Of a stretch of DNA of 64,000 nucleotides, positions 11,301-47,537 are shown piece after piece. This stretch comes from Myxococcaceae bacterium (GTDB lineage Bacteria > Myxococcota > Myxococcia > Myxococcales > Myxococcaceae). A program made the position numbers and the translations under genes. The stretch lies in contig RPRB01000008.1 of assembly GCA_003818285.1 (NCBI GenBank), positions 1 through 64,000 on the forward strand, written 5' to 3'. The notes under the pieces are model-generated. The model searched no databases and was not told the DNA's origin. It worked only from the letters and a program-made list of their open reading frames with translations. Each line of letters begins with the position of its first letter. The first letter of the stretch is position 1.

Positions 11301-11492
11301 GGTCACGCTGGAGGCCATCGTCTGGGCCGACGCGCCGGGGAAGGCCGTCGACACCACGATGGTGGGGTAGTCCACCTGCGGCAAGGCGGAGATGGGTAGC
11401 TGCCGGAAGGCGACGAGCCCGGCGAGGGTCAGGCCGACGGTGAGGAGCGTCGTCCCCACCGGCCGCTTGATGAACGGCTCGCTGATGCTCAC
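8373..11492 (-). CDS. RND efflux permease, first permease of the operon (MdtB/MdtC-like)
   Basis: This 1039-residue RND permease begins SISEPFIKRPVG, a typical TM1 entry. It has FVVDDAIVMIENI with the TM4 Asp pair, FREFAVTLSLAI and the C-terminal LLIGIVKKNAIMMIDFAL. It closely parallels the next gene, which points to an ancestral duplication. The start codon is GTG at 11492, overlapping the MFP stop. Two different permeases in one operon is the MdtABC arrangement, in which a B2C heterotrimer works with one periplasmic adaptor and TolC. Drug, bile-salt or metal-chelate export are family possibilities only. Confidence 0.93.
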   Translation of the reverse strand: MSISEPFIKRPVGTTLLTVGLTLAGLVAFRQLPISALPQVDYPTIVVSTAFPGASAQTMASSVTAPLERQFGQIPSLAVMTSVSSATSSQVTLQFTLDRSIDAAQQDVQAAINAASSVLPANLPAPPTYSKSNPADVPILTLAISSDTLPLPQVNDYADSILAQKISQVSGVGLVTLGGAQRPAVRVQVDPEALSGTGLTLEDVRAALVAANINAPKGTLDTPRQEYTLQTDDQLMDAKAFAPVVLAYVNGAPLRLQDVARTVDSVENAQLAGWANEQRAIILNVQRQPGANVIQVADRVKALLPQLEASLPQGIHVSILADRTETVRASVKDVEFTLVLTIFLVVAVIYVFLRNLRATTIPGITVPLSLIGTFGLMYLLGYSLNNLSLMALTISTGFVVDDAIVMIENISRYIEEGESPFRAAIKGAAQIGFTIVSLTVSLIAVLVPLLFMTGLIGRLFREFAVTLSLAIGVSAVLSLTLTPMMCAWILKPEPPAEQRGRFYAWSERTFERVIAAYGRGVDWVLRHQPLTLAITIGTFLLTVVLALVIPKGFFPVQDTGLVTGITEADPGVSFSRMSELQQRVVQVVREDPDVVAVASFIGADGTNPTTNSGRISITLKPRDERRANATQFIARLQPRLAELAGIAVYLQAVQDLQIETRQSRTPYQYTLEGADPGELAAWAPKLLAKLRSLPELKSVATDQLGNGPVTLLNIDRDTASRLGISTQAIDDTLYDAFGQRQVSTIFTQLNLYRVILEVNPELAKGPRALDRIYVRNASGSPVPLSAVVQRVETTAPLTVNHQGQFPSVTLSFDVAPGYALGAAVKAIRQATDELGLPRGLNASFQGTAQEFRDSLANEPILVLAALITVYIVLGVLYESYIHPVTILSTLPSAGVGALLALMLCGMEFDIVALIGIVLLIGIVKKNAIMMIDFALVAEREEMLSPAESIKKACLLRFRPIMMTSFAALLGGLPLALEGGTGSELRKPLGVSIVGGLLISQVLTLYTTPVIYLYMERFGRWITARRRPGKTHGAPEGVPG

Positions 11493-12814
11493 TGCGCGAC
11501 CGCCTCCCGCGGCCCCCCTTGCTGTGCCGTCCTCCCCTGCGGTTGCGGCTGGCGCGGCTGGGACCGCGACCCGGCCTGCTGCGGTGAGGCAGGAACCGCC
11601 TGCTGGCCCGGCTCACCCTGCGGCACCGGCGTGGACGGGAGCGGCACCGCGCGCGGATCCACCTTCGCCCCGGCGCGAAGCTGGTTCTGCCCGTCCACCA
11701 CCACCCGTTCTCCCGCCTGGACGCCCTGGGCCACGACCGTCAGCGGGCCCTGCGCGGTGTCCACCTGCACGTTGCGCACGGCGACCGTGCTGTCCGGAGC
11801 CACCACGTAGACGAAGATGCCGCTCGGTCCTCTCTGGATGGCCGGCGTGGGAACCACGACCACGCCCTCACGGGTCTCGAGGTGCATCCGCGCCTTGACG
11901 AACAGGCTGGGCCACAGCCGGAAGTCCGGATTGGAGAACTCGGCCTTGAGCCGGATGGTGGCAGTGCCCGGGTTCACCTGGTTGTCGATGACGGTGAGCT
12001 TGCCGGTCCCGAGATTCGAGAGCCCCCCGCGGTCCCAGGCCTCCACGGTGAGGGGCCCCCTGGAGTAGGCCGCGGCCACCCGCGGGAGGTCGTCCTGGGG
12101 AAGGGTGAACAGCACCGCGATGGGGTCCATCTGGGTGAGCACCACGATGCCGTTCGCGTCGGTGGGGGTGACCAGGTTGCCCACGTCGACCTGGCGGACC
12201 CCGGCGAGGCCGTCGATCGGGGAGGTGACGCTGGAGAACTGGAGGTTCAGCCGGGCGTTGTTCACCGCCGCCTGGTCGAGCGCCACAGTGGCCCGCGCCG
12301 AGTCCACGGTGGCCCGCTGCAGGTCGTACTGCTGCTGGGCGATCAGCTTCTGGGAGATCAGCTCCTTGAACCGGGCGAGGTCCAGCTCGGCGTTCCTCAG
12401 GGTCGCCAGGTCCCGCTGGAACGTGGCCTCGGCCTGCTGGAGCGCGATGCGGAAGGGGCGGGGGTCCAGCTGGACCAGGAGATCGCCGGTCTTCACCCGC
12501 GAGCCCTCCTGGAAGGCGACGGAGAGGATCTGCCCGCTCACCCGCGCCCGCACCGTCACGGTCGCGAGCGAGGTGACGTTCCCCAGCCCCTCCACCCAGA
12601 TCGGCACGTCGCGCCGCTCGGCGGCCGTGACCCCCACCGGAACCACCCGGGCCTGGGCGCCCGCCCCGGGCTGCTGGCTGGAGGACCCCTTGCCCCGGCG
12701 GACCAGGGCGAAGGCCACCACGGCCACCAGGGCGACCGCGATCCAGATCCATGCCCGCCGCCTGCGGGCAGGGCGCGGCGGCGGTTGCTCGGACGGCGTT
12801 TCGGGCACGGTCAC
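11489..12814 (-). CDS. RND periplasmic adaptor (membrane fusion protein)
   Basis: This 441-residue adaptor has an N-terminal TM anchor (WIWIAVALVAVVAFALV, after an RRRR run). Next is a lipoyl/barrel-sandwich half (VTVRARVSGQI, FQEGSRVKTGDLLVQLD), a coiled-coil hairpin (about 110-180, QAEATFQRDLATLRNAEL), the second lipoyl half (VTSPIDGLAGVRQVDVG) and a beta-barrel domain. The tail from about residue 385 is Pro/Gln-rich and probably disordered. The GTG at 12814 overlaps the TolC-like gene's stop. It should link the two permeases to the outer-membrane channel encoded just upstream. Confidence 0.92.
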   Translation of the reverse strand: MTVPETPSEQPPPRPARRRRAWIWIAVALVAVVAFALVRRGKGSSSQQPGAGAQARVVPVGVTAAERRDVPIWVEGLGNVTSLATVTVRARVSGQILSVAFQEGSRVKTGDLLVQLDPRPFRIALQQAEATFQRDLATLRNAELDLARFKELISQKLIAQQQYDLQRATVDSARATVALDQAAVNNARLNLQFSSVTSPIDGLAGVRQVDVGNLVTPTDANGIVVLTQMDPIAVLFTLPQDDLPRVAAAYSRGPLTVEAWDRGGLSNLGTGKLTVIDNQVNPGTATIRLKAEFSNPDFRLWPSLFVKARMHLETREGVVVVPTPAIQRGPSGIFVYVVAPDSTVAVRNVQVDTAQGPLTVVAQGVQAGERVVVDGQNQLRAGAKVDPRAVPLPSTPVPQGEPGQQAVPASPQQAGSRSQPRQPQPQGRTAQQGGPREAVAQ

Positions 12815-14163
12815 TCCTGCCGGCCGAGCGCCGCCAGCAGCCGGGCTCGCGCGGTGGCGAGATTGTACTGCGCCTGGACCAGCTGGGCCTGGGCGGTGGT
12901 CAGCTGCACCTGCGCGTCGGAGAGCTCGATGATGGTCCCCACCCCGGCCTGGTACCGGCCCTCGGCCAGCCGGAGCTGCTCCTTGGCGTTGTCCACCGCG
13001 TCCTGAGACGCGACCAGCGACTCCTTGTTTCCCAGCAGCGTGGCCTCGGCCTGCTCCACGTCGAAGCGGACCTGGAGCTGCTGCCCGGTGAGCCCGGCGG
13101 TGGACGAGACCAGGTTCTGCTCGGCCTCCCGGACCCGCCCCACGGTGAGACCGCCCTGGACCAGCTGCCAGGTCAGGGTGAACCCGAAAGCCCAGCTGTC
13201 GGCCAGTGCACTGAGATCCGGGCCTGCTTTGAAGAAGCTCCCGGCGAAGTCGATGGTCGGGCTCCATTCCCACCTCGCCGCATCCAGCACCTTTCCCGAG
13301 GCCTGGCGGGCGTACTCGAAGGAGGCGATCTCGGGGCGCTTGGCCAGCGCCTGGTCGAACAGGAAGGGAAGCGGCCGGTCCTCCACATCCACCGGCGGCA
13401 GCTCGTCCCCGGCGACCTGGTAGTCCGTTCCCTGCGGCAACCCCATGGCCTGATTGAGCTGGGCCTTGGCGATCCGGTCGTTGTTCTGGGCGGTGATGAG
13501 GAGCACCCGCGCGTTGGCCACGTTCAGCCTCGCCAGGGCGAGGTCGATCTCCGGACGGGTTCCGACGCGGACGAAGCCCTCCACCTGCTTCTGGTGGGTG
13601 AGCTGGTTCTGAAGCGTCTGGTCCGCGACCGACACGAGATCTCGGGTCGCGCGCGCCAGGAAGTAGGAGGTCCGGACGTTCAGGATGACGTTGTTCAGGG
13701 CCGCGGTCGCCGAGGCGTTCAGCGAGTCGAAGCTGCGCTGGGTGGACTCCCAGGTGGCCCAGGTCGACGGGTCCCAGATCGTCTGGCTGCCCGCCACCCC
13801 GAACCGCCAGGTGTTGCAGGTGCTGGTCGCGCACTGGGCCGCGTTGGGGGTGGTCCCGGTTCCCCCGGTCCCCACCGAGGTCAGGGCCCGGTAGCTCCGC
13901 GTCCACGACGCCTGGGGGGTCAGCTGGGGAAGCAGCGGCGAGCGGGCCTGGATGACCCTGCCCTCGGCGGCGGACGCCGCGGCCCGGGCCTGGATGAGCT
14001 GCGGCTGGTTCTGCAGGGCCGCCTGGACCGCCTCGTCCAGGTGGAGAAGCCGCGGTGCGTCGGATGGGGGCTGGGCTGTGCCGGCGTCCGGGGCAGCCGA
14101 CTGTGCCCGGGCCAGGCCCGGGACCAGGGCAAGGAAGAGCAGGAGGAAGGCGGGTCGGAGCAC
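12811..14163 (-). CDS. TolC-family outer-membrane efflux protein
   Basis: This 450-residue outer-membrane channel is the first gene of the efflux operon. It has a signal peptide (LRPAFLLLFLALVPGLARA) and two repeats of long alpha-helical hairpins, visible as LLHLDEAVQAALQNQPQL early and RLAEGRYQAGVGTIIELSDAQ late. The second is the classical TolC-repeat signature. The GTG at 14163 follows a GAGGGG run and gives a standard-length signal peptide; an ATG at 14220 is an alternative. An insertion with two Cys (AAQCATSTCNTW) near residue 110 is unusual and could form a disulphide. The gene is divergent from the RND operon that starts at 14377. Confidence 0.9.
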   Translation of the reverse strand: MLRPAFLLLFLALVPGLARAQSAAPDAGTAQPPSDAPRLLHLDEAVQAALQNQPQLIQARAAASAAEGRVIQARSPLLPQLTPQASWTRSYRALTSVGTGGTGTTPNAAQCATSTCNTWRFGVAGSQTIWDPSTWATWESTQRSFDSLNASATAALNNVILNVRTSYFLARATRDLVSVADQTLQNQLTHQKQVEGFVRVGTRPEIDLALARLNVANARVLLITAQNNDRIAKAQLNQAMGLPQGTDYQVAGDELPPVDVEDRPLPFLFDQALAKRPEIASFEYARQASGKVLDAARWEWSPTIDFAGSFFKAGPDLSALADSWAFGFTLTWQLVQGGLTVGRVREAEQNLVSSTAGLTGQQLQVRFDVEQAEATLLGNKESLVASQDAVDNAKEQLRLAEGRYQAGVGTIIELSDAQVQLTTAQAQLVQAQYNLATARARLLAALGRQE

Positions 14164-14376
14164 CGCCCCCTCATGCTCCAGTCCAGGCCGGGGCGCACGT
14201 TTTTCCTGGGAGGAGGGCATGGTTTCGCGTGGCCGACACCCGACCCGCGGAAACGTTGTGGTAGCAAGGGTCATTCCCCTGGTGCGTGCGCGGCATGCCT
14301 CCGATGAGGACTCGGGTGGGCTCGCGCCGGGGTGCTCGTTAGTACGAGGGCTCACGCGGGAGGCTCGGGGAATCTC
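14164..14376. promoter_or_regulatory. divergent intergenic region between two RND operons
   Basis: These 213 bases must hold the promoters of both efflux operons (minus strand from 14163, plus strand from 14377), unless one is read from outside. I see an AT-rich patch at 14255-14275 (gaaacgttgtggtagcaag), but no confident -35/-10 pair and no clear repressor palindrome. No TetR- or MarR-like regulator gene lies next to it. Confidence 0.4.
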
Positions 14377-17300
14377 ATGTGGATCGTCCGGCTGGCGCTG
14401 CGCCGGCCCTACACCGTGGCGGTGCTCTCGGCCCTGATCTTCATCGCCGGGCTGCTCTCGGTCACGCGCATGCGGACCGACATCTTCCCCTCCATCGACA
14501 TCCCGGTGGTGGTCGTGGTGTGGAACTATCCGGGCCTGTCCGCCGAGGACATGGAGCGCCGCATCGTCCTGATCAGCGAGCGCGCCTATTCCACGGTGAT
14601 CGACGGCATCACTCACATCGAGTCTCAGTCCATCGCCGGGGTGGGTTTGCTCAAGCTGTACTTCGAGCCCGACGCGGACCTGGGAACCGCCATCTCCCAG
14701 ATCACCTCGGTGTCACTCACCGCCAGCCGGATCATGCCCCCCGGCATCCAGCCTCCCAACGTGCTCCGGTTCAACGCCGGCAACGTGCCGGTGGCGCAGA
14801 TCAACGTCTCCAGCAACACGGTGGGGGAGCAGCAGCTGTTCGACTACGGGCTGAACTTCCTCCGCGTCCGCCTCTTCACCATCCCCGGCACGTCCATCCC
14901 CGGCCCGTACGGCGGCAAGCAGCGGCAGATCATGGTGGACGTGGACCCGTCGGCCACCGCGGCCAAGGGCCTGAGCCCCAGCGACGTGGTGCAGTCCCTG
15001 CTGCAGTCGAATGTCATCGTCCCGGCGGGGACCGCGCAGATCGGGTCCACCGAGTACACCGTCAAGCTCAATTCCAGTCCCAGCACCGTCGAGCAGTTCA
15101 ACGCCATCCCGGTGAAGGTGGTGAACGGTGCTCCGGTGCTCCTGCGCGACGTGGCCCACGTCCGGGACGGGTACGCGGTCCAGCAGAACATCGTTCACAT
15201 CGACGGCAACCGCGCGAGCTACATCGTCGTCCTCAAGCACTCCAACGCCGGCACCCTCGCGGTGGTGGACGGGGTGAAGGCGCTCCTCCCCTCGATCCAG
15301 GCCGCCGCCCCGGAGGGCATCACCCTCAAGCTGGACTTCGACCAGTCGATCTTCGTCCGCGCCGCCCTGACCAACGTCCTCCATGAGGCGGTCATCAGCT
15401 CAATCCTCGTCTCGCTGATGATCCTCTTCTTCCTGGGGAGCTTCCGGAGCGTGGCCATCGTCTCCAGCTCCATCCCCCTGGCAATCCTGGTGGGGATCGC
15501 CGGGCTCTTCGTCACCGGGAACACGCTGAATCTGATGACCCTGGGCGGGCTCGCCCTGGCCATCGGCATGCTGGTGGACGACGCGACCGTCGCCGTCGAG
15601 TCCATCCACCGCAACCACAATTCCGGCAAGCGGCTGACGGTGGCCATCCTCGACGGAGCCCACGAGGTCGCCACCCCCGCGCTTGCCGCCACCCTCACCA
15701 TCTGCATCGTCTTCTTCCCGGTGGTGCTGCTCACCGGACCGGCGCGCTACCTCTTCACCCCGCTGGCGGTGGCGGTGGTGTTCTCGATGCTCGCCTCCTA
15801 CGTACTCAGCCGGACCCTGGTCCCGGCGCTGGCGCGACTGCTGGAGCCGGAGCATGCCCACGCGGAGACCGAGGGCAACGGGCTGTTCGCGCGTTTCAAC
15901 CGGTGGCGCGACGACCGGTTCGAGCGCTTCCAGGCCGGATACGGACGGATGCTGAACGTCGCGCTCCACCACCGGCCGTGGATGCTCGGCACCTTCACCG
16001 TGATCATCCTGATCTCGGCGACGCTCCCGGTCTTCGCGGTCGGGCTCGACTTCTTCCCCGACGTGGACGTGGGCCTGATGCGGCTTCACTTCCGCGCCCC
16101 GGTGGGGACCCGCATCACCGACACCGAGCGCCTGGTGCTCGAGGCCGAGCGAAAGATCAGGGAGATCATCCCGCCCGAGGAGCTGGAGGGGCTGAACGAC
16201 AACATCGGGATCCCGCTCTCGTACAACCTGGCCTTCGTCTCCACCGACAACATCGGCCCGCAGGACGCGGAGATCCTCATCTCGCTGAAGCCCGGCCACA
16301 AGCCCACGCGCGGGTACATGAAGCGGATCCGCGAGGAGCTTGGGAAGGCATTCCCCGGCAGCTCGCTGTACTTCCAGCCCGCGGACATCGTGACCCAGGT
16401 GCTGAACTTCGGCCTCCCCGCGCCGATCGACGTGGTCATCGAGTCGAACGACCTCGAGAAGGGCTACACCGTCGGGCGGCAGCTGGCGGCCAGGATGCGC
16501 CGCATCCCGGGCGTGGTCGACGTGCGCATCCCCCAGGTGCTCGACTACCCCACGCTCAACCTCGACGTGGACCGGCTCCGCGCCGCACAGGTGGGGCTGT
16601 CCCAGCGCGACGTCGCCAACAATCTCCTCACCTCGCTGGCCAGCAGCAGCCTGGTGAACTCCAACTTCTGGCTCAGCCCCCAGAACAACGTGAACTACCT
16701 GGTGGCAGTGCAGACGCCGCTGCCGCGGATGCGCAGCACCAGCGATCTGCTGGCCACGCCCATCACCTCGCCGGGCTCGCAGTCCCTCCGGCAGACCCCC
16801 ACCAAGACGCTCACCGATGCCGCGGCCAGCCCCGGGAGCCTCTACCTGGGCACCTTCTCCCAGCTCACGCCGGGCAGGACCCTCGCCTCGGTGAACCATT
16901 CCACCATCCAGCGGGTGATCAACGTCCAGGCCGCCGCCGGCATGCGGGACCTCGGCTCCGTCGCCCGTGACATCGACCGGGCGATCGCCTCGCTCCAGGA
17001 CGTGCCGAAGGGGATCAAGATCTCCGTCCGGGGGCAGATCGAGAGCATGCGCACCTCGTTCGGCTCGCTCGGACTGGGGCTCATCCTCGCGGTGGTACTG
17101 GTGTATCTCTTGATGGTCGTGCTGTTCCAGTCGTGGCTGGACCCGTTCATCATCCTCGCCGCGGTGCCGGGGGCCCTGGTGGGTATCCTCTGGATGCTCG
17201 CCCTCACCGGGACCACGCTCAACGTCGAGTCGTTCATGGGCGCGATCATGTCCGTGGGTATCGCGGTCTCGAACAGCATCCTTCTGGTCTCCTACGCCAA

Positions 17301-17622
17301 CGAGGTCCGCAGCCAGCGTCGCGTCTCGCCGCTGGAGGCGGCACTGGAGGCGGGGAAGGTCCGGCTCCGGCCGGTGCTGATGACCGCTCTGGCGATGGTC
17401 CTCGGAATGTTGCCAATGGCCCTTGCCCTGGGCGAGGGCGGCGAGCAGAACGCTCCGCTCGGCCGAGCGGTCATCGGCGGACTGCTGGTCGCCACCTTCG
17501 TCACCCTGTTCATCGTCCCGGTGGTGTACTCCGTGCTCCGGCGGAAGGAGCCCCAGGCGCACCGGCTGGACGAGCGTTTCCTGGAGGAGAGCCAGGGCGC
17601 ACATCCTGGAGCGCTGGCATGA
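14377..17622 (+). CDS. RND efflux permease, second system
   Basis: This 1081-residue RND transporter begins MWIVRLALRRPYTVAVLSAL. It has the TM4 motif GMLVDDATVAVESI with the Asp pair and a C-terminal half with SVGIAVSNSILLVSYANEV. It differs clearly from the two permeases on the other strand (for example NVPVAQINVSSNT in the first loop) and so belongs to another RND branch. An unusual loop of Ser/Thr-rich residues (SPGSQSLRQTPTKT) near position 805 interrupts the second periplasmic domain. The ATG at 14377 has GGGG about six bases upstream. It is translationally coupled (ATGA) to its adaptor gene. No outer-membrane factor lies beside it, so it may share the TolC-like protein at 12811-14163. 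Confidence 0.92.
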   Translation: MWIVRLALRRPYTVAVLSALIFIAGLLSVTRMRTDIFPSIDIPVVVVVWNYPGLSAEDMERRIVLISERAYSTVIDGITHIESQSIAGVGLLKLYFEPDADLGTAISQITSVSLTASRIMPPGIQPPNVLRFNAGNVPVAQINVSSNTVGEQQLFDYGLNFLRVRLFTIPGTSIPGPYGGKQRQIMVDVDPSATAAKGLSPSDVVQSLLQSNVIVPAGTAQIGSTEYTVKLNSSPSTVEQFNAIPVKVVNGAPVLLRDVAHVRDGYAVQQNIVHIDGNRASYIVVLKHSNAGTLAVVDGVKALLPSIQAAAPEGITLKLDFDQSIFVRAALTNVLHEAVISSILVSLMILFFLGSFRSVAIVSSSIPLAILVGIAGLFVTGNTLNLMTLGGLALAIGMLVDDATVAVESIHRNHNSGKRLTVAILDGAHEVATPALAATLTICIVFFPVVLLTGPARYLFTPLAVAVVFSMLASYVLSRTLVPALARLLEPEHAHAETEGNGLFARFNRWRDDRFERFQAGYGRMLNVALHHRPWMLGTFTVIILISATLPVFAVGLDFFPDVDVGLMRLHFRAPVGTRITDTERLVLEAERKIREIIPPEELEGLNDNIGIPLSYNLAFVSTDNIGPQDAEILISLKPGHKPTRGYMKRIREELGKAFPGSSLYFQPADIVTQVLNFGLPAPIDVVIESNDLEKGYTVGRQLAARMRRIPGVVDVRIPQVLDYPTLNLDVDRLRAAQVGLSQRDVANNLLTSLASSSLVNSNFWLSPQNNVNYLVAVQTPLPRMRSTSDLLATPITSPGSQSLRQTPTKTLTDAAASPGSLYLGTFSQLTPGRTLASVNHSTIQRVINVQAAAGMRDLGSVARDIDRAIASLQDVPKGIKISVRGQIESMRTSFGSLGLGLILAVVLVYLLMVVLFQSWLDPFIILAAVPGALVGILWMLALTGTTLNVESFMGAIMSVGIAVSNSILLVSYANEVRSQRRVSPLEAALEAGKVRLRPVLMTALAMVLGMLPMALALGEGGEQNAPLGRAVIGGLLVATFVTLFIVPVVYSVLRRKEPQAHRLDERFLEESQGAHPGALA

Positions 17623-19174: not shown

Positions 19175-19618
19175 TCAGGTCCGGCGTGGGCGGAGGAGCA
19201 GCAAGGCGAGCGCCACCGGCAGGAGCGCAAGCGGCGAGGCGGACTGACCGGTGACGTCGAAGCAGCCGTAGCTCGGGGGTGGGACCGATCCGCCGCCCGC
19301 CACGTTCGGGTCCGATCCGGCCTCGAGCTCGTCGATGTCCGGCACCCCGTCGTGGTCGCTGTCGGTTCTCTCGGCGGCGAGCGCGTCCAGCGCGGTGTCC
19401 AGGCTGGCGATGTTCTGCGACACGAGGCCCCGTGAGCGCATCGACGTCCCGAACGGCGTGGTGACGGTCCCGAACCCGGTCTGCCCGTTGGCGTGACAGA
19501 CCGAGCAGTCGGGGGTGTACGACAGCCCGAGGTGGGCGCGCATCTCCGGCGGGTAGATGGAGGAAGCTTGCGCCAGGCAGCCGGCGAGCAGCGCGGTCGC
19601 GAGGACGAGGCGTCTCAA
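19175..19618 (-). CDS. exported c-type haem protein with thrombospondin type-3 repeat and C-terminal anchor
   Basis: This 147-residue protein has a signal peptide (residues 1-18, ending AQAS). It has one haem-attachment motif, CSVCH, near residue 38. A Met in GTSMRS may be the distal ligand. A calcium-binding thrombospondin type-3-like repeat (DSDHDGVPDIDELEAGSDPN) follows. The C-terminus has a Cys, a hydrophobic segment (LALLPVALALLLL) and RPRR, which resembles the MYXO-CTERM sorting tail of myxobacteria. It is probably a surface or periplasmic electron-transfer protein. A weak inverted repeat at about 19117-19155 separates it from the convergent gene ending at 19084. Confidence 0.75.
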   Translation of the reverse strand: MRRLVLATALLAGCLAQASSIYPPEMRAHLGLSYTPDCSVCHANGQTGFGTVTTPFGTSMRSRGLVSQNIASLDTALDALAAERTDSDHDGVPDIDELEAGSDPNVAGGGSVPPPSYGCFDVTGQSASPLALLPVALALLLLRPRRT

Positions 19619-22245: not shown

Positions 22246-22417
22246 CCCTCACCTCGAAGGCGGGGGGGGCGCCCGGTGAGTTGGCGCTTGCCAGGTGCGG
22301 CCGACGCGCTCAGCCTGCGCAGGACAAGTCGGAGCAACGGTCGGGATCGGCAACGAGGAGTCTCGAAATGGGCCTACCTCGCCTGACGCCATTCGAGTCA
22401 CCAGGAGGAGGACCAGC

Positions 22418-23710
22418 ATGAAATCGAGTCTCTGGCAGTGCACGTGGCTCACGGCGATCGCCGCCGCGCTGGCGTGGATACCCAGCACCGCCGCCGCCGA
22501 GGACGCGAAGCCATTTCGCGTCGGCATCGTCACCTTCCTCTCCGGGGCGGCTGCGGGGCCCTTCGGGGTGCCGGCGCGCAACGCCGCCGAGGTAGTCGTC
22601 GAGGCGCTCAACGCAGGTACCGTGGTGGCGCCCTACGGGAATACCAAGGGCATCGGCGGAGCGCCGCTGGAGATCGTCTTCGTCGACGAGGCCGGCGGGA
22701 CCACCAAGCAGGTGACGGAGTACCGCAATCTCGTTCAGCAGAAGAACGTCGACGCGGTGATCGGCTACATCTCGAGCGGCGATTGCCTGGCGATCGCGCC
22801 AGTCGCCGACGAGCTGAAGAAGCTCACCGTGTTCTTCGACTGCGGCACGCCGCGCATCTTCGAGGATGCAAGCTACAAGTACCTGTTCCGGACGGGGGCC
22901 ACCGCTACGATCGACAACGTCGCAGCCGCGCTCTACCTGAACGAGCACAAGAAGAACACCCGCAAGATCGCCGGCATCAACCAGAACTACGCCTGGGGCC
23001 AGGATTCGTGGAACGACTTCGTGGCCGCGATGAAGGTGCTCGTTCCCAACGTCCAGATTGCCACCTCGCAGATGCCCAAGCTCCTCGCTGGGCAATACGG
23101 CGCCGAGATCTCCGCGCTCCTGTCCGCGGACGCAGACGTCGTTCACTCGAGCTTCTGGGGGGGCGACCTGGATGCGCTGATCCTCCAGGGCGCTCCACGC
23201 GGGCTGTTCAAGAAGAGCACGGTCGTGCTGACCGCCGGAGAAACCGCAGTGCAGAAGCTCGGCGATCAGATCCCCGATGGCACGATCATCGGCGCGCGCG
23301 GGCCATTCGACATGTTTGCGCCCGATACCGAGCTGAATCGCTGGTTCCGCAAGGTCTACACCGACCGCTATAACGTTCCGCCTTCGTACCCGTCGTACAA
23401 GATGGCCCAGGCAATCTTCGGCCTCAAGGCTGCCTACGAGAAGGCCCAGGCCGGTGGCAAGGCCGCGCCTTCGCAGGAGCAGATCATCGTCGCGTTCGAA
23501 CATCTGACGTTCGAGGGCCCCGGCGGCAAGGTGACGATGGGTCTCGGAAAGGGTCACCAGGCCGTGCAAGGAACCGCTTACGGAACGGTGAAACACGTTG
23601 GGGACAAGTTCACGCTGACCAACGTGACGACCTACACCGCCGAGCGGGTCACGCCGCCGGACGGCGTCAAGAGCGAGGACTGGATCAAGGGTCTCAAGGC
23701 TGCCAAGTAG
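22418..23710 (+). CDS. ABC transporter substrate-binding protein, branched-chain amino acid/amide type (first cluster)
   Basis: This 430-residue periplasmic binding protein belongs to the type I LivJ-like family. It has a signal peptide (WLTAIAAALAWIPSTAAAE) and then FRVGIVTFLSGAAAGPFG, which opens the first lobe. VDAVIGYISSGDCLAIAPVADELKK is the ligand-cleft hinge region. GGAGGAGG precedes the ATG at an ideal distance. The substrate cannot be read from sequence; members bind leucine, amides, urea or aromatic acids. It is the first of five co-directional transporter genes (22418-27052). Codon choice looks less GC-extreme than in neighbours, hinting at transfer. Confidence 0.92.
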   Translation: MKSSLWQCTWLTAIAAALAWIPSTAAAEDAKPFRVGIVTFLSGAAAGPFGVPARNAAEVVVEALNAGTVVAPYGNTKGIGGAPLEIVFVDEAGGTTKQVTEYRNLVQQKNVDAVIGYISSGDCLAIAPVADELKKLTVFFDCGTPRIFEDASYKYLFRTGATATIDNVAAALYLNEHKKNTRKIAGINQNYAWGQDSWNDFVAAMKVLVPNVQIATSQMPKLLAGQYGAEISALLSADADVVHSSFWGGDLDALILQGAPRGLFKKSTVVLTAGETAVQKLGDQIPDGTIIGARGPFDMFAPDTELNRWFRKVYTDRYNVPPSYPSYKMAQAIFGLKAAYEKAQAGGKAAPSQEQIIVAFEHLTFEGPGGKVTMGLGKGHQAVQGTAYGTVKHVGDKFTLTNVTTYTAERVTPPDGVKSEDWIKGLKAAK

Positions 23711-23768
23711 GTGGCCGTGGTCCGAAACCGGCCCTGGCGGAGCTCGTCCCGGCCGCGCGAGAGTCCCC

Positions 23769-24665
23769 ATGCGCGAGTTGCTACCGGTCGTCATCGACGG
23801 CGCGATCTACGCCTCGTGGCTGTTCGTCGTCGCCATCGGCCTGACGTTGATCTACGGGGTGATGAAGATCCTGAACATGGCGCACGGCAGCCTTTACGCG
23901 TTGGGCGCCTACGCCGCGGCGTCGCTCGGCGGTGCCTGGTTCGCCGGCGGTCACTCACCTTACGCCAGCTACGCGATTCTCGTGCTCGCCGCGCTCATCG
24001 TCGGGCTGATCGCCGGTCCGCTGCTCGAGCGCGGCTTGTTGCGCTTCATGTACGGCAAGGACGAGATCGTGCTGCTACTCGTCACCTACGCCGTGTTCCT
24101 GATCCTCGAGGACGTGATCAAGCTGATCTGGGGTGTCGACCCGTATTTCATCGCGCAGCCGTACGGCATGCTCGGCAACCTCGACTTCGCCGGGCTCACC
24201 TATCCCGTCTACAGCTTCGTGCTGATCGCGGTGGCGATCTTCATCGGCATCGGCATCGCCTGGGTGCTGCAGCGGACACGGCCCGGCAAGCTGCTGCTGG
24301 TGGTGATCCACGACCGCGAGGTGAGCCTGGCGATGGGCATCAACGTCTCGCTCTTCTATCTCACGACGTTCACCGCTGGCGCGATGCTGGCCGCCATCGG
24401 AGGCGCTTTGACGGCGCCGACGGTGTCGGTCGTGCCGGGGATGGGGGTCGAGGTGATCGTGCTCGCATTCGCGGTCGTCGTGATCGGCGGCCTCGGAAGT
24501 CTTCCCGGCGCCGCACTGGGAGCCCTGATTGTCGGGCTGGTGCGCTCGGCAGCGGTTCACTACCTGCCCCAGGTCGAGCTGTTCAGCATCTACCTGGTGA
24601 TGGCGCTGGTGCTGATCCTCCGGCCCAAGGGACTCTTCGCCGGCTTCGAGGCGCGCAAGATATGA
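23769..24665 (+). CDS. livH: branched-chain-type ABC permease LivH
   Basis: This 298-residue inner-membrane permease has about eight TM helices. Family motifs are GLTLIYGVMKILNMAHGSLYALGAY near the N-terminus and AFAVVVIGGLGSLPGAALGALIVG near residue 240, which is the EAA-like loop that contacts the ATPase. It pairs with the LivM protein encoded next. Its TGA overlaps the LivM ATG as ATGA. Fifty-eight bases separate it from the binding-protein gene. Confidence 0.92.
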   Translation: MRELLPVVIDGAIYASWLFVVAIGLTLIYGVMKILNMAHGSLYALGAYAAASLGGAWFAGGHSPYASYAILVLAALIVGLIAGPLLERGLLRFMYGKDEIVLLLVTYAVFLILEDVIKLIWGVDPYFIAQPYGMLGNLDFAGLTYPVYSFVLIAVAIFIGIGIAWVLQRTRPGKLLLVVIHDREVSLAMGINVSLFYLTTFTAGAMLAAIGGALTAPTVSVVPGMGVEVIVLAFAVVVIGGLGSLPGAALGALIVGLVRSAAVHYLPQVELFSIYLVMALVLILRPKGLFAGFEARKI

Positions 24666-25600
24666 ACCCCCGCGACCGCACCCTCGTCACCCTGGTCGCT
24701 GCGCTCGTCGTACTGCTGGCAGTTGGCGCGCTGCTGCCGCCCTGGCAGTTCCTGGCCACCGTCGCGCTCGCCAAGGGCTGCGCGGTGCTGGGGTTGATGC
24801 TCCTCCTGCGTACCGGGCTCGTCTCGTTCGGGCAGGGACTCTACTTTTGCCTCGGCGCGTATTCGGCGGGGGGCCTCGGCCAGTTCCTCGGCGTCACCGA
24901 CGCGCTGGTGCTGCTGGCCGCTGGCTGCCTCGTTGCGGCAGTCGTCGCAGTCGTGCTCGGGTTCCTTCTGGCGAACTATCGCAACATCTTCTTCGCCATG
25001 CTGTCGCTCGCCTTGTCGATGATCCTCTATGGCTTGTTGGTGAAGAGTCAGGCGCTCGGTAGCACCGACGGCTTCAACGTCGCCCCGCCGACGCTGGCAG
25101 GCTGGGCACTCTCGGGTCACGATGGGCGGTTCTTCCTGTACGCGCTTGCCTGCGTCGTCGCATTCGCCGGCGCGCTGACGCTGGACCGCTACTTCAAGAC
25201 CCCGCTGGGCCGCCTGGCAGCGGCGATTCGCGACAACGAGCTTCGGGTCGAGTACATGGGTGCATCGGTGCGGCAGGCGATTCATGTGAAGTACGTGATT
25301 GCCTGCGCCCTCGCGGGGCTGGGTGGAGCGCTCACGGGGCTGACCGTGGGTCACATCGATCCGGAAATGGCGTACTGGACCACCTCGGGCGAGTTCGTCT
25401 TCGTCGCGATCCTCGCTGGTACCGGAAGCGTCGCGGCCCCGTTCCTGGGCTCCGTGCTTTTCGAGATCGTGCGCAGCGTCGCCTACCAGCACTCGCCGAA
25501 CACGTGGCAGCTTGCGCTCGGCACGGCGATGCTGCTGGTCATCATGTTCCTGCCCCGCGGCCTGTGGTCGATATTCGCCACGCGCGGCAAGGTGGCATGA
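24662..25600 (+). CDS. livM: branched-chain-type ABC permease LivM
   Basis: This 312-residue second permease has the family stretch LVSFGQGLYFCLGAYSAGGL, then YFKTPLGRLAAAIRDNELRVEYMG and FVAILAGTGSVAAPFLGSVLFE near the C-terminus. These are the cytoplasmic coupling segments of LivM proteins. The start overlaps the LivH stop, and its own stop overlaps the LivG ATG, so the operon is tightly coupled. The protein should form the channel heterodimer with LivH. Confidence 0.92.
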   Translation: MNPRDRTLVTLVAALVVLLAVGALLPPWQFLATVALAKGCAVLGLMLLLRTGLVSFGQGLYFCLGAYSAGGLGQFLGVTDALVLLAAGCLVAAVVAVVLGFLLANYRNIFFAMLSLALSMILYGLLVKSQALGSTDGFNVAPPTLAGWALSGHDGRFFLYALACVVAFAGALTLDRYFKTPLGRLAAAIRDNELRVEYMGASVRQAIHVKYVIACALAGLGGALTGLTVGHIDPEMAYWTTSGEFVFVAILAGTGSVAAPFLGSVLFEIVRSVAYQHSPNTWQLALGTAMLLVIMFLPRGLWSIFATRGKVA

Positions 25601-26409
25601 CCATGGCCCCCATCCTCGAGGCCAGGGCATTGAGCAAGCGCTTCGGCGCGGTGGTCGCGGCGGCGAACATCAACGCGGCGATCGAAGACGATTCTGTCGT
25701 CGGACTGATCGGCGCCAACGGCGCTGGCAAGACCACGTTCGTCAACATGATCACCGGCTACCTGAAGCCGGATTTCGGCACGGTCGCGTTCGAAGGCCGC
25801 GACATCACGGCGCTTCTGCCGCGCGAGGTGACGCGGATCGGCATCTGCCGCTCGTTCCAGATTCCGCAGCTCTACGACTCGCTGACGGTACGCGAGAACC
25901 TGGGGATCGCGCTCGGCATCGTGCTGCGAAATAGCCGCACCTTCGCCTGGGCGCGCTTACCGAAGCGGGTGCCGGGCCATGCCGGGACACTGCCGGAAGC
26001 CGCCGCCACGATGCTCGAGCGTTTCGGGCTCACCGATCACGGCGACCGGCTGGCAGGGGTCCTCCCGGAAGGCATCCGCAAGCTGCTCGACATCGCCATG
26101 GCGCTGGTGGTCAAGCCGAAGATGCTCCTTCTGGACGAGCCGACCAGCGGGATCAGCAGCGACGAGAAGTTCGACATCATGGACCGCGTCATGAACGCCG
26201 TGCGAGCCGATGGTGTGACTGTGCTGTTCATCGAGCACGACATGGACATCGTGAGCCGTTACGCGCAACGCGTGATGGCGTTCTACGAGGGCCGTATTCT
26301 CGCCGATGGTGTGGCCGCCACGGTGCTCGCCGACGAGGAGGTTCGCCGCTATGTGATCGGCGGGCCCCAGGTCCGGCTGGCAGAGGAAGCAGGCAACGCC
26401 AATGCTTAG
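25597..26409 (+). CDS. livG: ABC transporter ATPase LivG (first cluster)
   Basis: This 270-residue ATPase has Walker A GANGAGKTTF (near 38), the Q-loop region FQIPQLYDSLTVREN, Walker B MLLLDEPTSGIS and the switch His in IEHDMD. The position of the signature loop reads LPEGIRKLLDIA instead of a canonical LSGGQ. That is seen in some LivG-type proteins but is notable here. The ATG overlaps the LivM stop. It energises the transporter together with LivF, with which it overlaps by eight bases. Confidence 0.92.
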   Translation: MTMAPILEARALSKRFGAVVAAANINAAIEDDSVVGLIGANGAGKTTFVNMITGYLKPDFGTVAFEGRDITALLPREVTRIGICRSFQIPQLYDSLTVRENLGIALGIVLRNSRTFAWARLPKRVPGHAGTLPEAAATMLERFGLTDHGDRLAGVLPEGIRKLLDIAMALVVKPKMLLLDEPTSGISSDEKFDIMDRVMNAVRADGVTVLFIEHDMDIVSRYAQRVMAFYEGRILADGVAATVLADEEVRRYVIGGPQVRLAEEAGNANA

Positions 26410-27052
26410 GATCAGCGGACTCGACGTGTCGATCGGGTCGGTCAGCATTCTGCGTGACGTCGAACTGGACTTGCCGAGCGGCATGATGGCGGGTCTGATC
26501 GGCCGCAACGGTGCGGGCAAGACGACGCTCATGCGCGGCATCATGGGCCTCTTGCCGGCGCGTGGGGGCACCATCGAGTTCGATGGCGACGTGCTCACCC
26601 GCATCGCACCGCATGCGCGCACCCGACTCGGCATCGGCTACCTGCCCGAGGACCGGCGGCTGGTTCCAGCGCTCACGGTCGAGGAGAACATCCTCGTGCC
26701 GGCATGGGCACTCGGCTTGCCCAACGCGGAGGCGCGCTGGAAGAGGATCTGCGCCCTGATCCCCGAGATCGAAGCCCTCGCTGAGCGCAAGGCGTTGCAC
26801 CTCTCGGGTGGGCAGCAGAAGCTGGTCGCGATCGGGCGCGCGCTGATGTGCGGCACCAAGCTTCTGCTGCTCGACGAGCCATTCGAGGGTGTCGCGCCGG
26901 CGCTATCGAAGCGCATCGCCGAGGTGATCGCGGGGCTCAAGCGCGAAGGCCTGTCGATCCTCGTGTCCGAGTCCGACCTGCAGCACTCGGCGAGCATGCT
27001 GGACCGCGTGTTCAGGATCGAGCGCGGCGAGGTGAGCGTCGGCTCGGCATGA
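26402..27052 (+). CDS. livF: ABC transporter ATPase LivF (first cluster)
   Basis: This 216-residue ATPase has Walker A GRNGAGKTTL, the signature LSGGQQKLVAIGRAL, Walker B LLLLDEPFEGVAP and a Ser at the usual switch-His site (VSESDLQHS). Family members usually have His or Gln there, so this deserves a check. It is shorter than typical LivF proteins (about 235). It is the last gene of the first liv cluster, and the following 197 bases are non-coding. Confidence 0.9.
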   Translation: MLRISGLDVSIGSVSILRDVELDLPSGMMAGLIGRNGAGKTTLMRGIMGLLPARGGTIEFDGDVLTRIAPHARTRLGIGYLPEDRRLVPALTVEENILVPAWALGLPNAEARWKRICALIPEIEALAERKALHLSGGQQKLVAIGRALMCGTKLLLLDEPFEGVAPALSKRIAEVIAGLKREGLSILVSESDLQHSASMLDRVFRIERGEVSVGSA

Positions 27053-27249: not shown

Positions 27250-30201
27250 ATGCGCCGGCTCCTCGCCGCCGTTTTCCTGGCCTCGGTCCCGGCCGCTGCA
27301 CAGACCCTCAGCCCTGGCGGGCCCGCGAACTCGTTCGAGTTCACCACCTTCGTCGGCGGCCAGGGACAGCTCACCGACTTCCGCTTCCTGCCCGACGGGC
27401 GCGTGGTGATGACCGAGAAGACCGGCGCGGTGAAGGTCCGCCGCACCGACGGGACCGTGGTCACCGCGGGCAGCTTCACCGTGGACAGCGGGAGCGAGAA
27501 GGGCTTGCTCGGTGTCGAGGTGGATCCGCAGTTCCAGATCAACGGCTTCCTCTATTTCTACGCTTCCGACGGCCCGACCACGGCGAACAAGCACCGGGTC
27601 CTCCGTGTAAGGCTCAACCCGGACAACACGCTGCAGTGCACCGGGTCGTGCAGTACCGCCCAGACAGGTGTCACGGTGCTCCTGCAGAACCTTGCCGGAC
27701 CCGCGAACCACGACGGCGGAGCTCTGGCCATCGGCCCGGACGGGAAGCTGTACGTGGGCGTGGGCGACACCGGCTGCAACTCGGGCATCCCTCCGGGCAC
27801 AACCATCGGCAACTACATCGCGACCTGCCTCACCACGGCGAACGGCAAGGTGCTGCGCATCAACCTGGACGGCACCATCCCTGCGGACAACCCGCTCGCC
27901 GCTCCGGGCACCACCGTTCCCGCGTGCAACGGCAGCTGTGGCAGTGGCCCCGATCCCGGGACGCTGGTCACCGGGGCACGGACGGAGATCTGGGCCTGGG
28001 GTTTCCGCAATCCCTTCCGGTTCTCCTTCGATCCGCAGACCGGCAATCTCTGGGTCGGTGACGTCGGCGAGGTCAGCTACGAGGAGATCGACCTGGTCCG
28101 GAAGGGCCAGCACCACGGCTGGCCGTACCGTGAGGGCGGGTTCGGATATCCGGTCACCACCTGCGCGAATCTCGGCCCGAATGGCGTGGGCGCGAACTGC
28201 GTGGAGCCGGCGTACTTCTGCGAGCACGCCGGCGCTGCCGGCGACAACGACGGCAACTGCCAGAGCATCACCGGCGGCGTCTTCGTGGACAGCGCGAGCT
28301 TCCCCCCGCCGTACCGCGGGAGGTACTTCTTCGGGGACAACGCCAACGGCAACGTCTGGACGCTGACCCCCAACGCGAATCGCGACGGCTTCGTGACCAG
28401 TCCGCGGGCCGACTTCGGGACCGACTTCGGCACCGTCACCCGGTTCCTCGTCGGCCCGGACGGAGCGCTCTATGTCAGTGCGGCCGGGGGAAGCATCTTC
28501 CGCATCGCGCCGAAACCGGGAGTCGATGCCGGAACGCCGGACGCTGGCCCTCCCGATGCCGGACCTCCCGACGCGGGTCCTCCCGACGCTGGCCGCCCGG
28601 ACGCAGGCCCTCGCCCCGATGCGGGTCCTCCGCTCGACGCGGGTCCCATCGACTTCGGCGGCGGAACCCCGCCGGGAGGGCTCGCCGGGGGCGCGCCCTT
28701 CCAGGGACCGGACACCTGCAAGCTCTGTCACTCCGCCGCGGAAATCGGCGGGGGCGGGAGCGACGGGCCGTGGGACGGGTGGGCGGCCACCATGATGGCC
28801 AGCGCCATCCGCGATCCGCTGTTCCAGGCGGCGCTCAGCGTGGCCAACCAGGACGTGCTCGGCATCGGCCAGTGGTGCCTGCGCTGTCACTCGCCCACCT
28901 CCTACGTCCAGGGGCACTCGCTGCCCGCCAGCGGGAGCGCCCTGGACGCGGTGGACCGCGCGGGCGTCAGCTGCGAGGCCTGTCACCGCACCCGCACCGA
29001 CGCCGGGCTCATCGGCAACGCCCAGCTCACCTTCGAGCCCAGCTTCACCGTCCACGGGCCCTACCCCAACGTGGACAGCCCGGCGCACACCGGGGCGCAG
29101 GACCTGGCGGTGAGCCAGAGCAGCCTCTGCGGCCAGTGCCACGAGGTGCGGAACCCGGTCCTGAAGCGGGCCGGGAGCCAGCGGGCCTTCCCGCTCGACA
29201 CCACCTATTCCGAGTGGCTGCAGTCGGCGTACGCCTCGGGTCCCGGGGCGAAGACCTGCCAGGACTGTCACATGGTGCGGGCGGCGCAGGACGCGCCGGT
29301 GGCCAAGGACGGGCCGGTCCGGCCCACGCCCAGCCGTCACGCCTTCGTGGGCGGGAACGTGTGGGGGCTGGACGCCGTCCGGGCGGCGGCCGCTCCCGGT
29401 GAGCTGGCCGGGCTGGACGCGGCCTTCGCCGCCAACCGGACGGCCGCGCTGCAGAACCTCGCCGGGGCCGCGGATGTGCAGATCCTCCTGCCCCAAGGCT
29501 CGATCCCGGTGGAGACCGAGGTCCAGCTGAAGATCCGCGTGTTCAACCGGACCGGCCACAAGCTCCCCACCGGCTACGCGGACGGCCGTCGCGTCTTCCT
29601 CGAGCTCCGGGTGAACGACCAGGTGGTGAGCGGCGCCTACGACAGCGACGCGGGGGTGCTCGTCGCCGATCCGCAGCTGGCGGTGTTCGAGGCGGTGCAC
29701 GCGCGCAGGGACGGCGGGCTGGACCACCTCGCGCTCCACGACACCATCCTCAAGGACACGCGCATCGAGCCGCTCGGCTTCCGGCCCGACGAGGACACCG
29801 CCCCGGTGGGCATCACCTTCCCTCGCGACGCGGACGGTGGCGCGATGGGCGCGGCGGAGTGGACCTACCGCGTGCGCCTCCCGTCCTCGGCCCTCGCGGC
29901 CGGAAGCGCGACGGTGGAGGCGCGGCTCTTCCACCAGGCCACCACCCGCGAGTACGTCGAGGCGCTCGCCGCGGCGAACGTGACCGACGGGAAGGGCGAC
30001 CAGCTCCACGCGATCTGGGAGACCACGGGGCGGGCCGCGCCGGTCCTGATGACCAGCACCCGCGTCTCGGCCCCGCTCACGCAAGGGGGCGACGTCGTCG
30101 GTGGCTGCGGGTGCCGGAGCACCAGCGGTGCCGCGGTCCTGCCCGCGCTGCTGGTGCTGCTCGCCTGGGGTGCGGCGCGGCGCCGGACGTCGGTCACCTA
30201 G
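27250..30201 (+). CDS. exported PQQ-type sugar dehydrogenase fused to a five-haem cytochrome c domain
   Basis: This 983-residue protein has four parts. Residues 1-18 are a signal peptide (LLAAVFLASVPAAA). About 20-420 match the soluble glucose/sorbosone dehydrogenase beta-propeller that uses PQQ (RFLPDGRVVMTEKTG, ANHDGGALAIGPDGKLYVGVGD, EIWAWGFRNPFRF, GQHHGWPYREGG). About 424-470 are a PDAGPPDAG-type flexible linker. About 480-690 carry five CxxCH haem motifs, at residues 490 (CKLCH), 543 (CLRCH), 575 (CEACH), 627 (CGQCH) and 670 (CQDCH), followed by an extracellular beta-type region. The tail GGCGCRSTSG, a hydrophobic segment and RRR resembles MYXO-CTERM. Sugar oxidation could pass electrons straight to its own haems (inference). 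There is no good Shine-Dalgarno. Confidence 0.88.
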   Translation: MRRLLAAVFLASVPAAAQTLSPGGPANSFEFTTFVGGQGQLTDFRFLPDGRVVMTEKTGAVKVRRTDGTVVTAGSFTVDSGSEKGLLGVEVDPQFQINGFLYFYASDGPTTANKHRVLRVRLNPDNTLQCTGSCSTAQTGVTVLLQNLAGPANHDGGALAIGPDGKLYVGVGDTGCNSGIPPGTTIGNYIATCLTTANGKVLRINLDGTIPADNPLAAPGTTVPACNGSCGSGPDPGTLVTGARTEIWAWGFRNPFRFSFDPQTGNLWVGDVGEVSYEEIDLVRKGQHHGWPYREGGFGYPVTTCANLGPNGVGANCVEPAYFCEHAGAAGDNDGNCQSITGGVFVDSASFPPPYRGRYFFGDNANGNVWTLTPNANRDGFVTSPRADFGTDFGTVTRFLVGPDGALYVSAAGGSIFRIAPKPGVDAGTPDAGPPDAGPPDAGPPDAGRPDAGPRPDAGPPLDAGPIDFGGGTPPGGLAGGAPFQGPDTCKLCHSAAEIGGGGSDGPWDGWAATMMASAIRDPLFQAALSVANQDVLGIGQWCLRCHSPTSYVQGHSLPASGSALDAVDRAGVSCEACHRTRTDAGLIGNAQLTFEPSFTVHGPYPNVDSPAHTGAQDLAVSQSSLCGQCHEVRNPVLKRAGSQRAFPLDTTYSEWLQSAYASGPGAKTCQDCHMVRAAQDAPVAKDGPVRPTPSRHAFVGGNVWGLDAVRAAAAPGELAGLDAAFAANRTAALQNLAGAADVQILLPQGSIPVETEVQLKIRVFNRTGHKLPTGYADGRRVFLELRVNDQVVSGAYDSDAGVLVADPQLAVFEAVHARRDGGLDHLALHDTILKDTRIEPLGFRPDEDTAPVGITFPRDADGGAMGAAEWTYRVRLPSSALAAGSATVEARLFHQATTREYVEALAAANVTDGKGDQLHAIWETTGRAAPVLMTSTRVSAPLTQGGDVVGGCGCRSTSGAAVLPALLVLLAWGAARRRTSVT

Positions 30202-46117: not shown

Positions 46118-46822
46118 TCACATTCCCAGAAATGCCTTCCTCACGTGCTCGTCGGCGAGCAGCTCCTGCCCCTTTCCCGAGAGCACCACCCGCCCGGTCT
46201 CCACCACGTAGGCGCGGTGGGCAATCTTGAGCGATTGGTAGACGTTCTGCTCTACCAGCAGAATGGTGATGCCCTGCCGGTTTATCTCCTTGATGATCTC
46301 GAAGATGTGCTTGACGAGCAGCGGAGAGAGGCCCAGCGAGGGCTCGTCGAGGAGGAGGAGCCTGGGGTTGGCCATCAGCCCGCGGGCGATGGCCAGCATC
46401 TGCTGCTCGCCGCCGGACATGGTGCCCCCCAGCTGGCGCTCGCGCTCCTTGAGCCGCGGGAAGAGCGTGAAGACCCGCTCCATGTTCCGCGCCCGATCCT
46501 TTCGCGTCGCCTTCACGAAGGAGCCCATGCGCAGGTTCTCGAGCACCGTCATCTCCGGGAAGATGCGCCGGGCCTCCGGCACCTGAACGATGCCCCGCTC
46601 CACCACCTGGTGCGGCTCGAGCCGGAGGAGGTCCACCCCGTCGAAGACCACCTCCCCGCTCGAAGCTTTCACCAGGCGAGAGATGTTGCGCAAGGTGGTT
46701 GATTTGCCGGCCCCGTTGGCCCCCACCACGGTGACGATCTCCCCCTGGTTCACCTCCAGGTCGATGTCCCACAGGACCTTCAGGTCGCCGTAGCTGAAGC
46801 TCAACTTTCGGACGCTAAGCAA
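46118..46822 (-). CDS. livF: ABC transporter ATPase LivF (second cluster)
   Basis: This 234-residue ATPase has Walker A GANGAGKSTT, signature MSGGEQQMLAIARGL, Walker B LLLLDEPSLGLSP and the final VRKAFLGM. The start is TTG at 46822, overlapping the LivG stop by eight bases; no ATG fits the conserved N-terminus (LSVRKLSFSYG). It lacks the usual switch His (LLVEQNV has Gln), typical of LivF. Confidence 0.93.
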   Translation of the reverse strand: MLSVRKLSFSYGDLKVLWDIDLEVNQGEIVTVVGANGAGKSTTLRNISRLVKASSGEVVFDGVDLLRLEPHQVVERGIVQVPEARRIFPEMTVLENLRMGSFVKATRKDRARNMERVFTLFPRLKERERQLGGTMSGGEQQMLAIARGLMANPRLLLLDEPSLGLSPLLVKHIFEIIKEINRQGITILLVEQNVYQSLKIAHRAYVVETGRVVLSGKGQELLADEHVRKAFLGM

Positions 46823-47537
46823 CTTGGGCGTCTCCGAGGTAGGCGGTGATCACGTCTGGGTTGTGGACGATCTCCTGCGGCGAGCCCTCGGCGAGCTTCT
46901 CGCCCGTGTTGAGACAGACGATCCGGTCCGAGATGCGCATGATGGCTTTCATGTCGTGCTCGATCACGATCTGCGTGAACCCGCGGGCCTTGATCTCCAG
47001 GATGAGCTGGATGATCTCATCGCTCTCGGCCGGGTTCAGCCCGCCCATCACCTCGTCCAGGAGCAACAGCTCGGGCCGGGTGGCGAGCCCGCGCGACACC
47101 TCCAGCTTATTGCGCTCGCCGATGGAGAGGCCGCCCGCCAGCATCGCAGCGCGATGGGCCATCCGCACCAGCTCCAGCTGCTCCATCGCCGCCTGGCGCG
47201 CGACCTTGAGCGAGTTGGTGCGCGCCAGCGCTCCCACCATCACGTTGTCCAGCACGTTGAGCTTGGCCAGGGGCCGCACCTTCTGCCAGGTACGCGCCAT
47301 GCCCAGCTTGCAGACCCGGTCCGGCTGGAGCCCGTGCAGCCGCTGGCCCTTGAAGACCACCTCTCCCTTGGAGGGCGGGTAGTAGCCGGTGATGCAGTTG
47401 AAAAGGGTGGTCTTGCCCGAGCCGTTGGGGCCGATCAGCCCCATGATCATCCCCTTCTCCACCGAGAAGCTGACGTCGGCGTTCGCAGCCAGCCCGCCGA
47501 AGAACTTGAACAGATGCCTTATCTCAAGGATTTGCAT
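46815..47537 (-). CDS. livG: ABC transporter ATPase LivG (second cluster)
   Basis: This 240-residue ATPase has Walker A GPNGSGKTTL, signature-loop LSIGERNKLEVSRGL, Walker B LLLLDEVMGGLNP and switch His in IEHDMKAI. I chose the ATG giving MQILEIRHL, with GGGAGG five bases upstream, rather than the start seven codons earlier. It overlaps the LivM gene by 14 bases and the LivF gene by eight. Confidence 0.93.
   Translation of the reverse strand: MQILEIRHLFKFFGGLAANADVSFSVEKGMIMGLIGPNGSGKTTLFNCITGYYPPSKGEVVFKGQRLHGLQPDRVCKLGMARTWQKVRPLAKLNVLDNVMVGALARTNSLKVARQAAMEQLELVRMAHRAAMLAGGLSIGERNKLEVSRGLATRPELLLLDEVMGGLNPAESDEIIQLILEIKARGFTQIVIEHDMKAIMRISDRIVCLNTGEKLAEGSPQEIVHNPDVITAYLGDAQVA

Follow-up and report, generated by a model that had tools for sequence, protein, structure and literature searches.

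The window analysed here, a stretch of 64,000 nucleotides, stems from contig RPRB01000008.1 of a Myxococcaceae bacterium (GCA_003818285.1). On its forward strand lies a gene for a protein of 983 amino acids (27250..30201, +), whose frame runs without a break from the ATG at 27250 to a stop codon ending at 30201. From the N-terminus, the product comprises a signal peptide, a GSDH propeller, a linker of PDAG repeats and five CxxCH motifs, and it ends in a tail that is a borderline MYXO-CTERM match. The Sec signal peptide (MRRLLAAVFLASVPAAA, residues 1-17, 27250..27300, +) is predicted from a basic start, a hydrophobic core and the motif AAA. An earlier sequence-only reading had placed propeller and haem motifs in one 983-residue frame with a PDAG linker between them. 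Both points were confirmed, the former by the uninterrupted frame and the latter by a tandem repeat array detected with TRF (28524..28646, +).

The junction of the two halves is genuine. GC content by codon position is coding-like throughout the gene, with the linker block as sole dip, and nothing points to a frameshift across the junction. A second species of the genus, G001, has an ortholog with 76-80% identity. One of its contigs covers residues 1-568, including the PDAG linker and two CxxCH motifs, and another extends from the linker to the C-terminus. Because the first contig reads through the linker into two haem motifs, a misassembly is excluded; with the coding signal continuing through the junction, the suspicion that a frameshift or misassembly had joined separate halves was rejected.

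Membership of the fused gene in a conserved operon was considered and discarded, the flanking genes showing no obvious link to it. Upstream lie branched-chain amino acid ABC transporter genes (22295-27052, Pfam), and a glyoxalase, an AraC regulator and an FMN reductase are encoded downstream. Elsewhere in the window, a second set resembles branched-chain amino acid ABC transporter genes (46118-49533), and several large frames resemble RND-type efflux pumps by eye (5182-17622). No dedicated electron conduit was seen near the fused gene in the window besides a small protein with one CxxCH motif. This exported protein of 147 amino acids (19175-19618, -) has no Pfam match, and its tail resembles MYXO-CTERM (GCF, a hydrophobic stretch and RPRRT). 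Some 8 kb separate its gene from the fused one, and it is a possible small haem partner at the surface.

Propeller fold and PQQ contacts

The N-terminal half (residues 44-412, 27379..28485, +) is a six-blade propeller of the GSDH fold family, matching PF07995 with 146 bits (gathering threshold 25, E=1.9e-42). Its structural model (pLDDT 77) has 3a9g as best Foldseek match (E=2e-23). Soluble PQQ sugar dehydrogenases lead the fold ranking, followed by HHIP and fungal AA12 enzymes. The PQQ-dependent dehydrogenase model TIGR03606 scored 77.2 bits, under its cut-off of 434.55 bits, and an NCBIfam family of PVC-type haem-binding CxxCH proteins overlaps the propeller weakly.

PQQ-contact residues were read from an alignment with three solved enzymes (2g8s, 7cdy, 3a9g) and 30 homologues. 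Site equivalences follow the sGDH numbering (Arg228, Asn229, Gly247, Arg406). H154 (27709..27711, +) corresponds to the catalytic His144 of sGDH, and R253-N254 (28006..28011, +) to Arg228-Asn229. The putative calcium loop, GDVGE at residues 270-274 (28057..28071, +), aligns with Gly247-Pro248; the glycine is kept and the proline is replaced by glutamate. The ligands in sGDH are the backbone carbonyls of this pair, and the side chains are uninformative. H154, R253, N254 and G273 are present in every aligned homologue. The propeller thus shares with sGDH and Asd (1cq1, 2g8s, 3a9g) the fold, the catalytic histidine, the Arg-Asn pair and the glycine of the calcium loop, whereas these enzymes are separate soluble proteins and the propeller is fused to a haem domain.

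A second difference concerns the cofactor. Lys377, Arg406 and Arg408 of sGDH pair with the PQQ carboxylates, Lys377 with that at C-7 (PMC6881789). In the fused protein, these cations are lost, the positions being occupied by A365 (28342..28344, +) and by T395 and T397 (28432..28440, +). The R-x-R pair is absent from all myxobacterial homologues aligned. Both arginines are kept in the three solved enzymes and in two proteins from Bacteroides metagenome-assembled genomes (MAGs), so the alignment is able to detect them. The Lys377 position holds lysine or arginine in the same proteins except 7cdy, and is a weaker marker because 7cdy has alanine there. Two acidic residues are near-invariant across the group, namely D363, where canonical enzymes have alanine (or cysteine), and E295, where they have threonine (or serine). 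In the tree, the canonical PQQ enzymes, including a Bacteroides MAG protein with the K/R/R set, form a clade apart from the propeller of the window. The Bacteroides MAG propellers with canonical K/R/R (L038, L042) have a multihaem cytochrome gene within a few kb.

A profile search of the genome recovered no PqqE above cut-off and no match at all to PqqC, and PqqC was found above cut-off in none of 40 relatives. The label of a PQQ-type sugar dehydrogenase given in the sequence-only reading is therefore not supported as it stands: the histidine, the Arg-Asn pair and the glycine are kept, but Lys377, Arg406 and Arg408 are exchanged for Ala, Thr and Thr, D363 and E295 are acidic, and PqqE and PqqC are absent above cut-off. 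Likewise, the proviso that a propeller devoid of PQQ and calcium ligands could not be a dehydrogenase applies by half: the PQQ anchors are gone, while the catalytic core and the calcium-loop glycine remain.

The loss of anchors does not disprove PQQ binding, because the fungal AA12 enzyme CcPDH is PQQ-dependent while several canonical contacts are missing (PMC4133262, PMC6881789). A true PQQ sugar dehydrogenase, holding scavenged PQQ by different residues and using the five haems as a wire, would also agree with the retained core and with the dependence of E. coli on environmental PQQ (PMC6881789). This reading is nevertheless quite unlikely: all three carboxylate cations are lost, and no conserved base obviously makes up for them, while D363 and E295 are acidic; PQQ synthesis genes are absent above cut-off; and the canonical enzymes, the K/R/R protein from Bacteroides among them, group separately. 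For AA12, the residues Arg273, His539, His560, Trp563, Asn564 and Arg621 of CcPDH were considered as the PQQ set; AA12 was missed by the sequence profile and matched by fold alone, so that the residue pairing is not reliable. The fold match to AA12 is weaker than that to PQQ sugar dehydrogenases.

Given the loss of the canonical anchors and the lack of genes for PQQ synthesis above cut-off, the propeller is possibly without redox activity. Human HHIP is not known as an enzyme. It contains a related propeller that likewise lacks the PQQ anchors (PMC4133262), and has no haems. By analogy, the propeller could be a non-enzymatic binding or structural module, docking the pentahaem half to a ligand, a polymer or a partner and leaving all redox work to that half. 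For one relative, from a neighbouring branch, HHIP is a better match than any dehydrogenase, the anchors are lost throughout the group with conserved acidic residues at two other positions, and PqqE and PqqC were not found above cut-off. However, H154, R253-N254 and the GDVG-EE loop are conserved in the propeller, whereas HHIP has lost the R-N pair (GLHDPG) and the calcium loop, and aldose and glucose dehydrogenases are closer matches for the propeller than HHIP is. A mere binding function is accordingly considered unlikely, if the strongest of the alternatives to a redox-active propeller.

The pentahaem half and the C-terminal tail

The five CxxCH motifs predicted for the second half were recovered exactly: CKLCH at residue 490 (28717..28731, +), CLRCH at 543 (28876..28890, +), CEACH at 575 (28972..28986, +), CGQCH at 627 (29128..29142, +) and CQDCH at 670 (29257..29271, +). 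This is far above the shuffle expectation, 5000 shuffles of the fused protein containing on average 0.008 and at most one such motif. Multihaem cytochrome models of Pfam match residues 490-677. Each motif is invariant in 12 aligned relatives from several phyla, with all ten cysteines and five histidines kept. M516, H697 and H770 are conserved in the same alignment and H613 mostly so; these four residues are candidate distal haem ligands. The haem motifs are followed by a beta-rich (Ig-like) domain (29470..30084, +), recognised from strands of the model and containing the invariant H770 in TGHKLPTG.

In a profile search, c552 of Thermochromatium tepidum, a pentahaem cytochrome (5ze8, E=7.7e-12), is the best solved relative, ahead of MccSep, a multihaem selenoprotein. 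The AlphaFold model of the haem half (pLDDT 72) has 5ze8 as its lone clear fold match (E=3e-12). Five CxxCH motifs, the C-terminal Ig-like domain and the 5ze8 fold place the haem half in the pentahaem c552/ExtKL (PHC) family. Against the ExtKL equivalog model NF040886, the fused protein scored 46.7 bits, below the cut-off of 250 bits, which marks the haem half as a family relative, not ExtKL proper. ExtKL and Gsu2801 of Geobacter and proteins of cable bacteria constitute a pentahaem family with an Ig-like domain, structurally homologous to c552, for which a kinship with an archaeal cytochrome nanowire has been discussed (PMC11976967). Unlike the fused protein, the members of this family have no propeller; the fusion partner recorded for PHCs of cable bacteria is a truncated haemoglobin.

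Weak profile matches to nitrite reductases and MccSep would fit a haem half that acts as a catalytic reductase fed from the cell, the propeller positioning or sensing the substrate. The five plain CxxCH motifs and the conserved candidate ligands M516, H613, H697 and H770 fit an electron carrier instead, and the sole clear fold match, c552, has no assigned catalytic role (PMC11976967). A reductase is thus highly improbable.

The C-terminal tail (30100..30186, +) consists of GCGC, a hydrophobic helix and RRR. It had been taken for a myxobacterial surface-sorting signal; the GGCGC-hydrophobic-RRR pattern is present, but the match to TIGR03901 is borderline, with 17.4 bits for the whole protein and 24 bits in the genome scan around a cut-off of 20. 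The tail of the G001 ortholog reached 19.8 bits. MYXO-CTERM sorting has been modelled with the myxosortase MrtX, the sorting protease, which is reported to be conserved across the phylum (PMC11980579). MrtX (NF040593, cut-off 180 bits) was not found above cut-off in the 502-contig draft genome of the window; the best match, 22 bits, is a frame of 241 amino acids resembling a generic CPBP protein. Although this genome is rated 100% complete, MYXO-CTERM matched in it just twice and MrtX stayed below cut-off. For outward electron transfer to be plausible, the tail would have to be processed.

Gene pairs and the origin of the fusion

Within the genomes searched, the fused form was seen in a single genus, in two species. 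Separate genes arranged head to tail, propeller before cytochrome, encode the halves in G003, G019 and G022, three further genomes of the family. Directly 5′ of the start codon of the cytochrome, in another frame, each of the three shows a low-complexity linker that leads through GCGC and a hydrophobic helix to an Arg cluster and a stop codon. This stretch probably is the MYXO-CTERM-like tail of the propeller gene itself. In G022, it overlaps the end of the propeller-bearing contig; in G003 and G019, the linker and a propeller gene that ends at the edge of another contig suggest the propeller as its owner. In the propeller genes, contigs end within or close to the low-complexity linkers (L107/L108 in G019, L109/L110 in G022, L114/L115 in G003), and short-read assemblies therefore hide tandem gene pairs. 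In G019, one contig (L107) carries a second propeller gene 3′ of the cytochrome and the tail of another propeller upstream of it, the order most likely being propeller-cytochrome-propeller.

These pairs agree with the fusion in the two families, their order and their export. They differ in forming two polypeptides, each with its own MYXO-CTERM-like tail, whereas the fusion contains neither a tail of the propeller nor a signal peptide of the cytochrome. Both elements appear to have been removed in the fusion event. Because the halves sit as separate tandem genes in sister genera, the gene of the window is regarded as a genus-level fusion of an operon pair. In trees of the family's propellers and cytochromes, the two fused proteins form one clade within a myxobacterial group, which is consistent with a single fusion event.

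Neighbouring genes of both types occur in genomes beyond this family as well. They adjoin divergently in an Oligoflexia MAG (L009), are convergent and about 1 kb apart in Enhygromyxa salina (L015), and lie in tandem in a Bacteroidia MAG (L017). Such genomes hold just a handful of propeller genes, so adjacency by chance seems unlikely. Among the 40 nearest genomes, a close propeller and a close cytochrome share exactly the same six (Fisher p=2.6e-7, uncorrected for kinship). A perfect co-occurrence of the halves was rejected outside this set, one genome having the propeller without the cytochrome (G040) and another the reverse (G045), at E<=1e-20.

Fusions of a propeller with a haem domain are known as such. 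The secreted CcPDH (AA8-AA12-CBM1), a fungal quinohaemoprotein pyranose dehydrogenase, combines a GSDH-like six-blade propeller with a haem domain (PMC4332668, PMC6881789), but the latter is N-terminal, of the AA8 type with one haem b, and unrelated to the pentahaem half. No description of a GSDH propeller fused to a multihaem cytochrome was found in the open-licence literature.

Proposed function and its bearing on pentahaem cytochromes

The fused protein is tentatively viewed, at a probability just short of even, as a redox enzyme that is exported, probably anchored at the surface and equipped with its own haem relay, born from the fusion of an operon pair. The signal peptide would direct Sec export, and attachment of the five haems would follow outside the cytoplasm. 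Related to PQQ sugar dehydrogenases and located in the part of the family that has a likeness to HHIP as well, the propeller may then oxidise a small substrate near H154, R253 and N254, with a putative cofactor and presumably with calcium. Electrons would cross the flexible, disordered PDAG linker to the tethered pentahaem domain and continue to an acceptor that may lie outside the cell; we infer this direction, as well as the location at the surface. The gene would have arisen from a propeller-cytochrome operon pair still separate in sister genera. Substrate oxidation with transfer to the haems is the most likely function, because the pair recurs in adjacent positions and an inert domain would have no evident reason to retain the His-Arg-Asn core. 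From the initial idea of a self-contained enzyme-to-wire module, the propeller joined to a multihaem cytochrome, the predicted export and the link of the halves by gene order elsewhere are retained, while the PQQ-type label is not.

A broader proposal, rather doubtful at present, is that the large group of anchorless "PQQ dehydrogenases" of myxobacteria are redox propellers in which PQQ was swapped or dropped, and that fused or tandem members have a pentahaem c552/ExtKL-type cytochrome as natural acceptor. PQQ might then have given way to another cofactor, to a metal or to a direct transfer to haem. For annotation, caution is advisable, as many proteins labelled PQQ sugar dehydrogenase lack the PQQ anchors.

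Pentahaem c552/ExtKL cytochromes are distributed over many phyla, and proposed nanowire proteins are among their relatives. The fusion, together with the neighbouring gene pairs in several phyla, provides a candidate electron donor for them. The fused protein offers a single polypeptide for testing the propeller as haem donor and, if active, would be a ready-made enzyme-to-haem relay for electrodes.
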